A stretch of DNA of 43,274 nt from a virus: positions 1 to 43,274 of IMG/VR virus record IMGVR_UViG_3300008113_000337; one strand, given 5' to 3'. Made by a program: the position numbers and the translations under genes. The notes under the pieces were generated by a model, which was not told the origin of the DNA, searched no databases, and was given only the letters and a program-made list of their open reading frames with translations. Shown here piece after piece: positions 1,008 to 16,548 of the stretch. The first letter of the stretch is position 1; each line of letters starts with the position of its first letter.

Positions 1008-1240
1008 TATTAAATTACATTGGTTACCAAGCCAGTAGGTAATTTATGCAGAGAATTAAATCCTAGTGACGGCTAGGCTCTGCTAAGTTACATGAAAGGT
1101 GGAAATCGGCTTAGGCTTAGATCAGTAGTCGCGCTGGAACAGCTTGGCAAGTAATGTGGTTGATAGACAAGTCCGTGGACGACACGGTAGGGCAGGTTTA
1201 AAACTGTTATTTCTATCAAACACCCAGTGTAATTTAATAT
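1007..1240 (+). ncRNA. structured inter-tRNA RNA module 1
   Basis: The ends are complementary over 17 bases: 1007-1023 pairs with 1224-1240, with one G-U pair. The stem begins at the last base of the upstream tRNA CCA and ends 8 bases before tRNA-Glu. Inside are several perfect hairpins: TTACC/GGTAA, GCAGAG/CTCTGC enclosing CCTAG/CTAGG, CCGTG/CACGG, and TTGATAGA/TCTATCAA. There is no ORF. I cannot assign it to a known family; ornate phage RNAs that sit among tRNA genes (GOLLD, ROOL) are the first to compare. Confidence 0.65.
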
Positions 1241-2993: not shown

Positions 2994-3006
2994 TTTTAGG
3001 AATCAC

Positions 3007-3273
3007 ATGATAGTTACACCATTGAAGAAAAAAGTCCTCGTTGCAGAGAATGCCCGTGAGACACAAACAGAGTCTGGCATTATTCTTGAGGGTACTCAAG
3101 GTTACGGTGATTCAAAGACAGGTAAAGTTATTGCCATTGGCCCAGATGTTACTGAGGTCAAGGTTGGCGATGACATTTATATGTTGTGGAATAAATGTAC
3201 TGTGGTAAATGTCGATGGAGCACAACGTGTTATGATCGATGAAGAAAACATTGTTGCAGTACTAGACAAATAA
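3007..3273 (+). CDS. GroES-like co-chaperonin (gp31-type)
   Basis: 88 residues from the ATG at 3007, with AGGA 6 bases upstream. The order of motifs is that of GroES: an N-terminal beta strand (VTPLKKKVLVAE), a mobile loop with the hydrophobic GroEL-binding tripeptide (SGIILEG), GKVIAIGP, VKVGD, and the C-terminal EENIVAVL. It is near the 97 residues of GroES and shorter than T4 gp31 (111). It would cap host GroEL, as gp31 does for folding the major capsid protein. Its place inside the tRNA array, between tRNA-Val and tRNA-Thr, suggests early expression. Confidence 0.85.
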   Translation: MIVTPLKKKVLVAENARETQTESGIILEGTQGYGDSKTGKVIAIGPDVTEVKVGDDIYMLWNKCTVVNVDGAQRVMIDEENIVAVLDK

Positions 3274-4454: not shown

Positions 4455-4528
4455 TTTGTGGTAAGGAAAGTAAAAGGAGAATGGGCAAGTCATAGGACGC
4501 TATGGACAGATACCTCACCTGCCACAAA
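4455..4528 (+). ncRNA. structured inter-tRNA RNA module 3
   Basis: TTTGTGG (4455-4461) pairs with CCACAAA (4522-4528), with an extra AGG/CCT step inside. The 74-base module has a tRNA-sized 7-pair end stem but no T-loop or anticodon arm. Confidence 0.45.
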
Positions 4529-4533
4529 TTAGT

Positions 4534-4753
4534 TTTGTAAGTGTCAGCAAGAGAATGTCACGCTATAAAGGTTTCTTCGAAGGACTGATATAGTAGAAGG
4601 GGACGGGTTCAACTCCCGGCTGATCGTAAGATCGGTGCAGTATGGTTGCAAACTGGATTAGTATCCCAAGTGATATCCATCGTGTACGAGGTCAGGCTAG
4701 GCGGCCGGTAAGTCCTGAATAAATCTACGATAAACGTGACGTAGGCTTACAAA
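4534..4753 (+). ncRNA. structured inter-tRNA RNA module 4 with embedded tRNA mimic
   Basis: TTTGTAAG (4534-4541) pairs with CTTACAAA (4746-4753), ending 8 bases before tRNA-Gln. Inside, TCAGC (4544-4548) pairs with GCTGA (4619-4623), and directly 5' of that strand sits a T-arm (CGGG-TTCAACT-CCCG, 4604-4618). That is the acceptor/T-arm geometry of a tRNA but without CCA. A GATC-GUAA-GATC hairpin and a CTACG/CGTAG stem follow. The TTCAACT loop is also typical of tmRNA, yet no tag or second half is near. Confidence 0.6.
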
Positions 4754-4761
4754 TTCATTGT

Positions 4762-11572: not shown

Positions 11573-11812
11573 GGGCCTGCATAGTTTCGACAGGGCAAAG
11601 AGTAACAGAGTGGACAGCACGGTAATGTGAAAACCGTAGGATTGAGGTAACTTTAGTCGCTATACCCATAGTGTAGAAAGACGAAGCTCGGTCGCAGAAG
11701 CAAAAAACGTAAATGCAAACGACGAACAGTTTCTAATGGTAGCTTGATTGCTATCTGAGTTTTGCTAGTTGAACTTGGAAACAGAATCAACTAGCTAATA
11801 ATTCCAAGTTCT
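11573..11812 (+). ncRNA. ssrA: tmRNA, 5' coding piece with tag ANDEQFLMVA
   Basis: GGGCCTG (11573) is followed by the D-loop analogue ATAGTTTCGACAGG, a hallmark of tmRNA 5' ends. ACGGT/ACCGT (11619-11623, 11633-11637) could be part of pseudoknot 1. The tag runs 11715-11747: GCA AAC GAC GAA CAG TTT, then CTA ATG GTA GCT and TGA (ANDEQFLMVA). The stop sits in the loop of a helix-5-like hairpin, GGTAGC/GCTATC (11738-11755). A pseudoknot follows: GCTAGTTGA (11764-11772) with TCAACTAGC (11787-11795), and loop ACTTGGAA (11773-11780) with TTCCAAGT (11802-11809). The 3' end is approximate and overlaps the endonuclease gene. Confidence 0.8.
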
Positions 11813-12277
11813 GGAACCATCTGGTCTAGTAACCATTTTTCTTCCAGTAACTTTTGCCGATAATTTAGATGCGCCTTTGCGAGCATTTTGCGCAGCATTC
11901 GGATTTGGTTTACCTTTGTTCCATGCAGTTTTGCCCTTTTTAGCATCACTTAATTTTTGGCGTTGTTCTAAAGACATAGGTATGCCTTTATTTACAGGAA
12001 TATTTCCTTTAGGTGCACCACATTTTAAATTATAATATTTTTTACCGAATTCATGATCTTTTATCATTTTTATTAATCGATATTCTTCAAGTTTTAAATC
12101 CTTTACGTTCAATACTTTTAAGATCCTTCTTTTAAAATCGTTTGGTCGAAATTTTATTTCATGAGTTAACCAATTAGAAGATGAAATATAACCATCATCT
12201 TTTAAACCGGTGTGCGATCCTATATAGTACATATTTCTTATTTTATCTCTCCATATATAAATAAAACCAGTAGACAT
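11795..12277 (-). CDS. GIY-YIG homing endonuclease inserted in the tmRNA gene
   Basis: 160 residues. The ATG at 12277 (reverse) has AAAGGAAC just upstream; the frame extends 11 residues further but without a ribosome site. GFIYIW at 4-9 and YIG at 18-20 are the GIY and YIG motifs. A NUMOD3 segment (KKGKTAWNKGKPNPNA) near the C-terminus is the DNA-binding part. Its final codons (R-T-W-N-Y-stop) are antisense to the tmRNA pseudoknot strand at 11802-11809. It lies between the tag start and a displaced ALAA-encoding tag end, so it is likely to cut intact tmRNA tag sequences. Confidence 0.85.
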   Translation of the reverse strand: MSTGFIYIWRDKIRNMYYIGSHTGLKDDGYISSSNWLTHEIKFRPNDFKRRILKVLNVKDLKLEEYRLIKMIKDHEFGKKYYNLKCGAPKGNIPVNKGIPMSLEQRQKLSDAKKGKTAWNKGKPNPNAAQNARKGASKLSAKVTGRKMVTRPDGSRTWNY

Positions 12278-12322
12278 ATTGTTCCTTTCATTATATAATA
12301 TATATGTCAAACGTAATTTTAA

Positions 12323-12385
12323 GCATTAGCAGCCTAAACACTGCTTAGGGTTTCGGTAGCTTTCCTCGTAACAGAATAAGCTACC
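12323..12385 (+). other. ssrA: displaced tmRNA tag end (ALAA-stop), helix 5 and pseudoknot-like stem
   Basis: GCA TTA GCA GCC TAA (12323-12337) encodes A-L-A-A-stop, the classical end of a tmRNA tag. The stop lies within AGCAG/CTGCT (12328-12332 with 12341-12345), the position of helix 5. GGTAGCTT/AAGCTACC (12355-12362 with 12378-12385) follows as a possible pseudoknot stem. Joined to the 5' tag codons it would read ANDEQF-ALAA, the normal 10 residues. It looks like the original tag end, pushed 0.6 kb away by the endonuclease insertion. Confidence 0.7.
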
Positions 12386-12416
12386 AATTTAAATTTAAAT
12401 TAACAGGAGTTTTTGA

Positions 12417-15277: not shown

Positions 15278-15520
15278 ATGAAAGATCTAGATCGAGGACG
15301 TTACACCTCTGAAGATGCAGTACTAAAAATCGGCAATCGTTATGATTTGGTTTTAGTTGCAACAGCAAGAGCCCGTGAAATCAAACGAGAGAAACATGGC
15401 TCAGCTCGTAGCAGCATTTTAACTGCACTTGAAGAAATCGAAGATGGTAAGGTTGGTGTTGAATATCTAAAGCATTATGCCAAAGGATATCGACAAAGCA
15501 GACATCACAGAAACGGTTAA
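15278..15520 (+). CDS. rpoZ: RNA polymerase omega subunit-like protein
   Basis: 80 residues, ATG with AAGG 7 bases upstream. The segment RYTSEDAVLKIGNRYDLVLVATARAREI is, in pieces, the omega (RpoZ) signature: a short N-terminal helix, N-R-Y/F-D-L-V-L-V-A and R-A-R. ILTALEEIEDGKV matches its second conserved block (AL.EI..GK). Omega wraps the beta-prime tail and affects assembly and promoter choice. A phage copy may replace or compete with host omega, perhaps to alter (p)ppGpp response. Length fits bacterial omega (80-90). Confidence 0.8.
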   Translation: MKDLDRGRYTSEDAVLKIGNRYDLVLVATARAREIKREKHGSARSSILTALEEIEDGKVGVEYLKHYAKGYRQSRHHRNG

Positions 15521-15528
15521 CTTGACCC

Positions 15529-15557
15529 TTGACAAGATTGTAATTTTATATTATAAT
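15529..15557 (+). promoter_or_regulatory. sigma70-type promoter, perfect consensus
   Basis: TTGACA, 17-base spacer, TATAAT. The start is expected near 15564, giving a leader of about 70 bases before the winged-helix gene. Confidence 0.85.
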
Positions 15558-15632
15558 AGTGTTATAGTAATGAAAGATCGCCGTTACTGTAATTTTTCCT
15601 TGTTGTGCGATTATATTTTAATGGAGTTATAC

Positions 15633-15884
15633 ATGTTGAAAGAACGTGTTTTGAAAGTACTTGAGTCCGGTCGTCAATTTACGCCAGCTCAATTGGCAGG
15701 TCTCACAGGTAGTTCGGAGGACAGCATTCGTCCCCGTATCAGCGAACTTCGTTCCGAAGGTTACGCTGTTTATACCAATTCTACAAAGAATGGTAAGACT
15801 GCTTATCGTCTAGGCACACCAAGCCGCAAAATGGTAGCCGCTGCATACGCAATGTTGGGCGGAGAAGCATTTAGCCGCGCTTAA
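15633..15884 (+). CDS. winged helix-turn-helix DNA-binding protein
   Basis: 83 residues from the ATG at 15633, which has GGAG 6 bases upstream. The upstream part of the frame overlaps the promoter and the omega gene and is unlikely to be translated. FTPAQLAGLTGSSEDSIRPRISELRSEGY is, in pieces, a helix-turn-helix with recognition helix DSIRPRISEL, followed by a beta wing (AVYTNSTKNGKTAYRLG). It is a typical small transcription regulator. Its strong promoter and the adjacent omega gene suggest a role in controlling host or phage transcription. Confidence 0.75.
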   Translation: MLKERVLKVLESGRQFTPAQLAGLTGSSEDSIRPRISELRSEGYAVYTNSTKNGKTAYRLGTPSRKMVAAAYAMLGGEAFSRA

Positions 15885-15984: not shown

Positions 15985-16548
15985 ATGACCTACAATTTTG
16001 AAGACTCAGCTGTTCGTAAGGAAGCCAAGCGTTTGCATTTAATTCGAAGGATTGATGCAAGACCTCTAACTGAAAGTGAAGAGGCAATGGCTACTGCTTT
16101 TGGTAAATGGGATTATCAAAATAAAAAGCAGAACCTAACTCCTGCACAAAAAGAAGCAATTCGTAAAAAAGTGCGAGAAGTAGCAAGGGCAAAGAAAGCA
16201 TTACCTGAAAATTTTGGTAAGCTTGAATATAATGCTCTTAAGAACCGTGTTAAAGCAAAAGCCAAAGACGGTCGAGTAATGGGTTTTAATCTTACCCCAG
16301 AATACATTCAAAAGGTATTTGATGAATGCCTCGGTAAATGTAAACTGACAGGTTTAGATTTCAGTATGGAACTTGGTACGAAAAAGAAACGTAATCCGTT
16401 TCGTCCCAGCGTAGATCGTATCAGTTCAAGTAAGGGTTATGTCAAAGGCAATATTCAGATTGTCCTGGCGATTGTGAACACCATGAAAATGGATTATACC
16501 GATGATATTTTGCATCCGGTAATTAAAGCCTGGGCATCGAAAATTTAA
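15985..16548 (+). CDS. HNH/endonuclease VII-like protein
   Basis: 187 residues. The N-terminal 110 residues are basic and helical. The C-terminal part has CKLTGLDFSMEL, then RPSVDRISSSKGYVKGN and IVLAIVNTMK, a pattern shared with HNH-fold nucleases in which a C..TG..F knuckle is followed by P-S-x-D-R-I and an Asn-containing helix. The usual first catalytic His is not evident (Asp-Arg in its place), and only one clear Cys pair half remains. No good ribosome site precedes the ATG. It could be a homing endonuclease or a structure-specific nuclease. Confidence 0.55.
   Translation: MTYNFEDSAVRKEAKRLHLIRRIDARPLTESEEAMATAFGKWDYQNKKQNLTPAQKEAIRKKVREVARAKKALPENFGKLEYNALKNRVKAKAKDGRVMGFNLTPEYIQKVFDECLGKCKLTGLDFSMELGTKKKRNPFRPSVDRISSSKGYVKGNIQIVLAIVNTMKMDYTDDILHPVIKAWASKI

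Follow-up and report, generated by a model that had tools for sequence, protein, structure and literature searches.

Results

Organization of the tmRNA locus

The stretch of DNA analysed here (the window) is the whole of a 43,274-base IMG/VR virus record, IMGVR_UViG_3300008113_000337; such virus records are fragments. It carries a permuted, two-piece tmRNA gene, a gene for a GIY-YIG homing endonuclease and, beyond it, a second tmRNA end, arranged as follows:

11227..11288, plus strand: acceptor piece of the tmRNA, the tRNA-like 3' part with T-arm and CAGGTCC-ACCA (RF04321)
11289..11572, plus strand: about 284 nt of intervening sequence, holding an 87-aa CxxCxxCC ORF at 11297-11560
11573..11732, plus strand: 5' half of the coding piece, through the sixth tag codon (ANDEQF; nhmmer, match to L147)
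11733..11747, plus strand: replacement tag end CTA ATG GTA GCT TGA (LMVA-stop), of the class of LMAA/LMVA ends in other phage tmRNAs
11738..11795, plus strand: replacement 3' hairpins, a helix around the stop and a stem 11764-11771/11788-11795 with an AACAGAA motif
11795..12277, minus strand: GIY-YIG homing endonuclease, 160 aa, with ATG at 12277 and an AAAGGA ribosome-binding site (phrog_314, NUMOD3, Foldseek)
12323..12386, plus strand: remnant left by the resident tmRNA, now displaced: GCATTAGCAGCCTAA (ALAA-stop) with two hairpins (nhmmer, L161)

The tmRNA is of the permuted type (Rfam RF04321, scoring 82.9 bits where the gathering score is 47), with the full model, 1-213, matched at 11227-11747. 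Between its two pieces, CAGGTCC (11278-11284) pairs with GGGCCTG (11573-11579), one of the base pairs being G3-U70. ARAGORN reported 28 tRNA genes in the window and no tmRNA, and this RF04321-type gene is therefore overlooked by at least one gene finder. The preliminary description of this DNA had recognized a tmRNA but missed both the two-piece layout and the ORF-bearing intervening sequence. A profile of 61 uninterrupted phage tmRNA 5' halves gave a single nhmmer match in the window, at 11574-11731 (E 1.2e-28), and L147 resembles window 11565-11730 at 80% before reading on into ALAA. The tag ORF itself, GCA AAC GAC GAA CAG TTT CTA ATG GTA GCT TGA (11715-11747), encodes ANDEQF followed by LMVA and a stop, as originally read.

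The CxxCxxCC ORF of the intervening sequence matches Pfam PF03692 (E 1.3e-6) and has counterparts in the intervening sequences of L047, L097 and L104, with 82% amino acid identity. According to our survey, intervening sequences of permuted phage tmRNA genes mostly measure 50-150 nt and can hold protein ORFs; ORFs of 113 and 122 aa, unrelated to the CxxCxxCC protein, were seen in others, L008 and L003 being among the ORF-bearing loci.

The replacement end is structured at the RNA level as well. Its two hairpins 3' of the LMVA tag are stable (MFE -21.8 kcal/mol, z -4.3), and in the second stem of LM-type ends five pairs are changed on both sides among 21 relatives, a set that mixes occupied and endonuclease-free alleles. 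The covariation score of this stem was 0.261, compared with 0.099 in shuffles (0 of 500 reached the score) and at most 0.077 in slid controls. Such covariation in the alignments argues that RNA-level constraint acts on the LMVA-type new end, and of the helix 5 and pseudoknot proposed earlier for it, two hairpins are supported.

The endonuclease and its C-terminal module

Directly behind the LMVA hairpins, and convergent with the tmRNA, lies the endonuclease gene, on the opposite strand as previously stated. Its product matches the homing endonucleases of phrog_314 (E 2e-19) and contains a NUMOD3 motif above the Pfam cut-off (E 2e-6), while the match to the GIY-YIG family PF01541 is subthreshold, 15.0 bits against a curated cut-off of 22.6. 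The AlphaFold model is of modest overall confidence (pLDDT 70.5, about 88 over residues 1-70). Its best Foldseek matches are to the I-TevI catalytic domain (probability 0.97-0.99, E 0.03-0.06; 0.99 and 0.03 for the top match). Residues Y7, Y18, H22, E65 and N83 are conserved across relatives and presumably fit the GIY-YIG core.

A C-terminal module of about 42 residues is common to three nuclease types, all found at the same tag site: the I-TevI-like GIY-YIG type, another GIY-YIG type (L063, L297) and an HNH type (L263, L264, L265, L273), in three of whose members the HNH domain matches phrog_655 (E about 1e-42 to 1e-47). This distribution suggests that the module may recognize the tag DNA.

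Some module-bearing genes stand apart in other ways. The module of L278 (about position 2959, reverse strand) is joined to another GIY-YIG-like domain, away from any tmRNA and near a gene resembling window ORF 15477-15884; the module may have other targets too. In L063 (1107-1949) and in L308, L312, L316, L333 and L335, the C-terminus of the endonuclease is read antisense through the 3' part of the tmRNA, a protein gene lying over an RNA gene.

Bacterial genomes scanned with the endonuclease alignment contained no relative. Scanned with the C-terminal module, they yielded a single contig from a metagenome bin (L367; DITF01000195.1, bin 'bacterium UBP17_UBA6191'), which holds a tmRNA with the tag ANDDTYLLAANA and a module-bearing endonuclease. 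As the tmRNA arrangement is of the same kind, this is probably a phage contig binned as bacterial. Endonuclease relatives in the isolate phages phiM12 and phiM19 of Sinorhizobium lie between protein genes and are not associated with tmRNA.

A stranded tag end and empty relatives

Beyond the endonuclease gene, GCA TTA GCA GCC TAA starts at 12323, and its hairpins extend to 12386. A profile of 70 uninterrupted phage tmRNA 3' halves found 12323-12386 as its single match in the window (nhmmer, E 5.8e-18), far above chance, so that the ALAA-stop, the helix-5-like hairpin and the further stem noticed earlier are confirmed. The two tmRNA halves are separated by 591 bases here and contiguous in uninterrupted genes. 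Pattern scans revealed about 100 viral-contig loci with uninterrupted tags, among them ANDEQFALAA in dozens; ANDEQF plus ALAA is thus indeed a normal tag.

Two syntenic relatives of the window present the empty state of the site: L161, with an uninterrupted ANDSQFALAA tag and no endonuclease, and L253, with an uninterrupted ANDEMFALAA. Comparison with relatives of this kind had been suggested in the preliminary description, and it establishes that occupied and empty alleles of one site exist in related genomes. Synteny between L161 and the window comprises DUF2828/TROVE-like, outer-membrane-like and phosphoesterase genes, at 95-99% amino acid identity. The remnant is identical to the uninterrupted tmRNA of L161 (65/65 nt), which disposes of the possibility that the ALAA segment is a chance match, and the nucleotide alignment of the downstream flank starts exactly at window base 12323.

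The left boundary lies elsewhere. Window 10046-12322 cannot be aligned to L161, where a compact tmRNA stands in its place; besides the endonuclease gene, this tract contains a glycine-rich gene and the donor-like tmRNA, including the intervening sequence and its ORF. Because the unaligned tract begins upstream of the tag, the whole donor tmRNA probably came in, and the exchange seems to have brought more than a tag end. The earlier idea of a replacement limited to the tag end holds insofar as that end was exchanged, but the exchanged tract reaches further upstream. The glycine-rich protein gene (PF21722, window 10116-11213) adjoins the tmRNA and is missing in L161; it may originate from the donor tract.

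A chimeric assembly was ruled out: L002 and L035 have the same structure at 99.8% identity, and dozens of contigs share the layout.

Recurrence in other phages

The same arrangement is present at the same tag spot in dozens of other freshwater phages. Each of the closest relatives of the endonuclease (L002-L011) immediately follows a permuted tmRNA, with a GCATTAGYAGCC-like remnant on its far side. A wider survey gave 71 unique endonuclease ORFs, from which a close set of 41 was defined by an A1 score of at least 150 bits or by the C-terminal module; survey counts refer to unique ORFs or contexts, not to independent insertions. Forty of the 41 adjoin a tmRNA on the opposite strand (L286, L295 and L297 scored by reading), the exception being L278, and neither tmRNA half was found near any of 28 distant relatives without the module. 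A remnant was detected at E <0.01 in 20 of the 41 close-set loci, and several further short ones are visible by eye (L005-L008).

Replacement tag ends comprise LMVA, LMAA, SLAA, RMAA, RIAA, RLAA, LVAANA and LLAANA, and the replacement tags keep a C-terminal -AA, -VA or -NA. In L316 and L271 the replacement is still ALAA, with five of 15 bases differing from the remnant of the same locus, all of them peptide-neutral. In L005, L007 and L008, tag starts and new ends are 100% identical over 100 bases and the endonucleases 71-78% identical in nucleotides; the tmRNA bodies share 51-81% identity, and the downstream flanks are at chance level. New end and endonuclease thus travel together.

Isolate phages searched by nucleotide with the locus gave no match, and megablast of the first 24 kb of the window returned matches to single tRNAs only. 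One tail-protein match was to a Limnohabitans phage.

Source of the LM-type end

LM-type tags were found by scanning in 70 unique contexts, 13 with the endonuclease and 57 without it, the latter having enough downstream sequence in 49 cases. The remnant accompanies 10 of the 13 endonuclease-bearing contexts and 0 of the 57 others (Fisher p 7e-10). Since LM ends are common without endonuclease or remnant, they are standing alleles of phage tmRNA. The new end of the window is 78.8-84.6% identical to endonuclease-free LM-type tmRNAs and 57.6% identical to its own remnant, where shuffled sequences reach a maximum of 58.3%. Being nearer to LM alleles than to its own remnant, it indicates that the endonuclease carries a foreign tmRNA allele. 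The LM end is best read, from these identities, as a foreign allele travelling with the endonuclease and not as its invention. The preliminary description, according to which an element entered the tag and supplied a new end, is supported as to the insertion and the stranded old end, with the refinement that the end supplied is best taken as a foreign allele. That LMVA could be ancestral in the window, an objection raised there, is countered by the lack of remnants behind endonuclease-free LM ends and by the ALAA tags of the syntenic relatives.

Other features of the window

Two candidate structured RNAs of about 230 nt each are unrelated to the tmRNA locus. One (1015-1240, plus strand) lies between tRNA-Ile and tRNA-Glu and also occurs in L506-L552, L030, L033 and L108. 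It has no Rfam match; its invariant core pattern is present in 51 viral stretches, with compensatory changes in 26 of 50 RNAalifold pairs across 22 sequences. The other (4524-4757, plus strand), just before tRNA-Gln and again with no Rfam match, was also found in L462-L505, L079, L087, L105 and L441. Its core pattern occurs in 49 viral stretches, and among 19 sequences compensatory changes affect 15 of 55 predicted pairs. Open frames of at least 60 codons are present in 11 of the 19 copies, the copy of the window not among them, so that a coding role retains some probability. Two genes resembling HNH/endonuclease VII and one for a DnaJ-domain protein lie near the tRNA cluster (5153-5731, 15985-16548 and 6735-7328, minus strand), and a GroES-like ORF lies at about 2994-3273.

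Discussion

We consider it very likely that this is a homing endonuclease gene whose target is the part of permuted phage tmRNA genes that codes for the tag. This reading is supported by the occupied and empty alleles, the exact right junction, the recurrence, the joint travel of new end and endonuclease, the RNA-level constraint on the new end, the pairing of one C-terminal module with several nuclease types at a single site, and the I-TevI-like fold. In the mechanism we infer, tmRNA alleles lacking the insert would be cut by the endonuclease close to tag codons 6-7 when phages co-infect a cell. Repair of the break would copy in the donor allele, consisting of a diverged or recoded tag end, its hairpins and the convergent endonuclease gene, together, in the window, probably with the upstream tmRNA of the donor, and the resident tag end would stay behind as a stranded remnant. 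The recoded end would let the RNA still add a degradable tag and would also abolish the cutting site, conferring immunity. Against homing stand the LM ends without endonuclease, the left boundary that is not at the tag, the location of L278 off the tmRNA, the subthreshold Pfam GIY-YIG match, and the modest overall confidence of the AlphaFold model. Most of the interpretation given in the preliminary description is nevertheless supported, with the corrections noted above.

The opposite polarity, in which an LMVA-type tmRNA was resident and the endonuclease was added behind it together with an ALAA-type 3' fragment, seems very improbable. LM-type tmRNAs without endonuclease are common, and the LM allele is complete on its own; yet two syntenic relatives have ALAA at the locus, and homology to L161 extends without interruption across the remnant and on into the gene downstream. 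Moreover, it is the remnants that have decayed elsewhere (GCATTAGTAGCCTAT without a stop in L007 and L008, the tag end lost in L029), whereas the LM or SLAA copies of such loci are intact. It is also improbable, if slightly less so, that the endonuclease is an inactive relic spread only with its phage or by ordinary recombination. Many neighbours do have truncated endonuclease ORFs or none. The ORF of the window, however, is full-length, with start and ribosome-binding site, its GIY-YIG core residues are conserved across relatives, the same element sits in different tmRNA bodies and flanks, and different nuclease domains occupy the same site.

Least probable by far, and hardly credible to us, is continued use of the ALAA end, whether by intron-like removal of the insert from the RNA or by production of both tag ends. 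The remnant of the window is intact, with both hairpins present, but remnants elsewhere are eroded, and it is the LMVA end that directly continues the 5' half, with a stop and a covarying stem to complete it. No Rfam intron family, group I included, was matched in the window at gathering thresholds, and the intron hypothesis was rejected.

Returning to homing into the tag, a broader proposal appears probable, with less confidence than homing itself: a modular family of endonucleases, combining a common C-terminal targeting module with GIY-YIG or HNH domains, invades two-piece tmRNA tags. As each insertion swaps in a recoded or different tag end while the degradation signal is kept, these selfish elements would drive the evolution of phage tmRNA tags. 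The endonucleases would enter a non-coding RNA at the part that codes for the tag and, in return, provide a substitute for both the tag end and the RNA structure. The family provides tag ends that nature has already varied (LMVA, LMAA, SLAA, RLAA, LVAANA and others) and makes the idea of immunity through recoding open to test. Its C-terminal module, common to two nuclease folds, is a candidate for a portable module that targets DNA.

Comparison with known systems

Literature on homing or GIY-YIG endonucleases together with tmRNA or ssrA did not describe this arrangement; coverage was incomplete, and novelty is provisional. Phage-encoded permuted tmRNA is known from phages such as Melnitz (PMC9004378; Rfam RF04321), for which no homing endonuclease is mentioned; the present tmRNA differs in its exchanged tag end and in having a gene within the intervening sequence. 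Endonuclease-bearing mobile elements also interrupt tmRNA genes as group I introns, some with LAGLIDADG endonucleases, which are inserted in the T-loop and spliced out (PMC11915505). In the 2025 tmRNA database paper, such T-loop introns are the only places for which endonucleases are reported (PMC11915505), whereas the present insertion, not an intron, lies in the tag, and the tmRNA gene it interrupts is of the permuted type.

The free-standing Seg and Mob endonucleases of T4-like phages (PMC2988022) are likewise phage GIY-YIG or HNH enzymes, whose spread through break repair co-converts the flanks. SegB lies among tRNA genes, and mobE (Aeh1 nrdA) and mobA (T4 gene 60) split coding regions (PMC2988022). 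In those cases the gene is left in pieces or the endonuclease lies between genes; here the split gene receives a substitute end, and the target is a tmRNA.

Close parallels are also offered by fungal mitochondria, where mobile ORFs bring replacement C-termini, in atp6 of Allomyces macrogynus and in atp6, atp9, cox2 and nad3 of Glomus sp. (PMC3630166). In the literature searched, replacement gene ends have so far been reported only for such mitochondrial protein genes (PMC3630166). There, too, the host gene is completed by a foreign 3' end that arrives with an inserted endonuclease gene, the native 3' end lies behind the insert, nearly identical to that of an uninserted relative (as the remnant here is to L161), and the inserted end is diverged from the native one and nearer to a foreign allele. 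In contrast to the fungal cases, the host gene is a phage two-piece tmRNA, the replaced part is the end of a peptide tag together with RNA structure, the endonuclease gene lies on the opposite strand, and several nuclease types share one C-terminal module.
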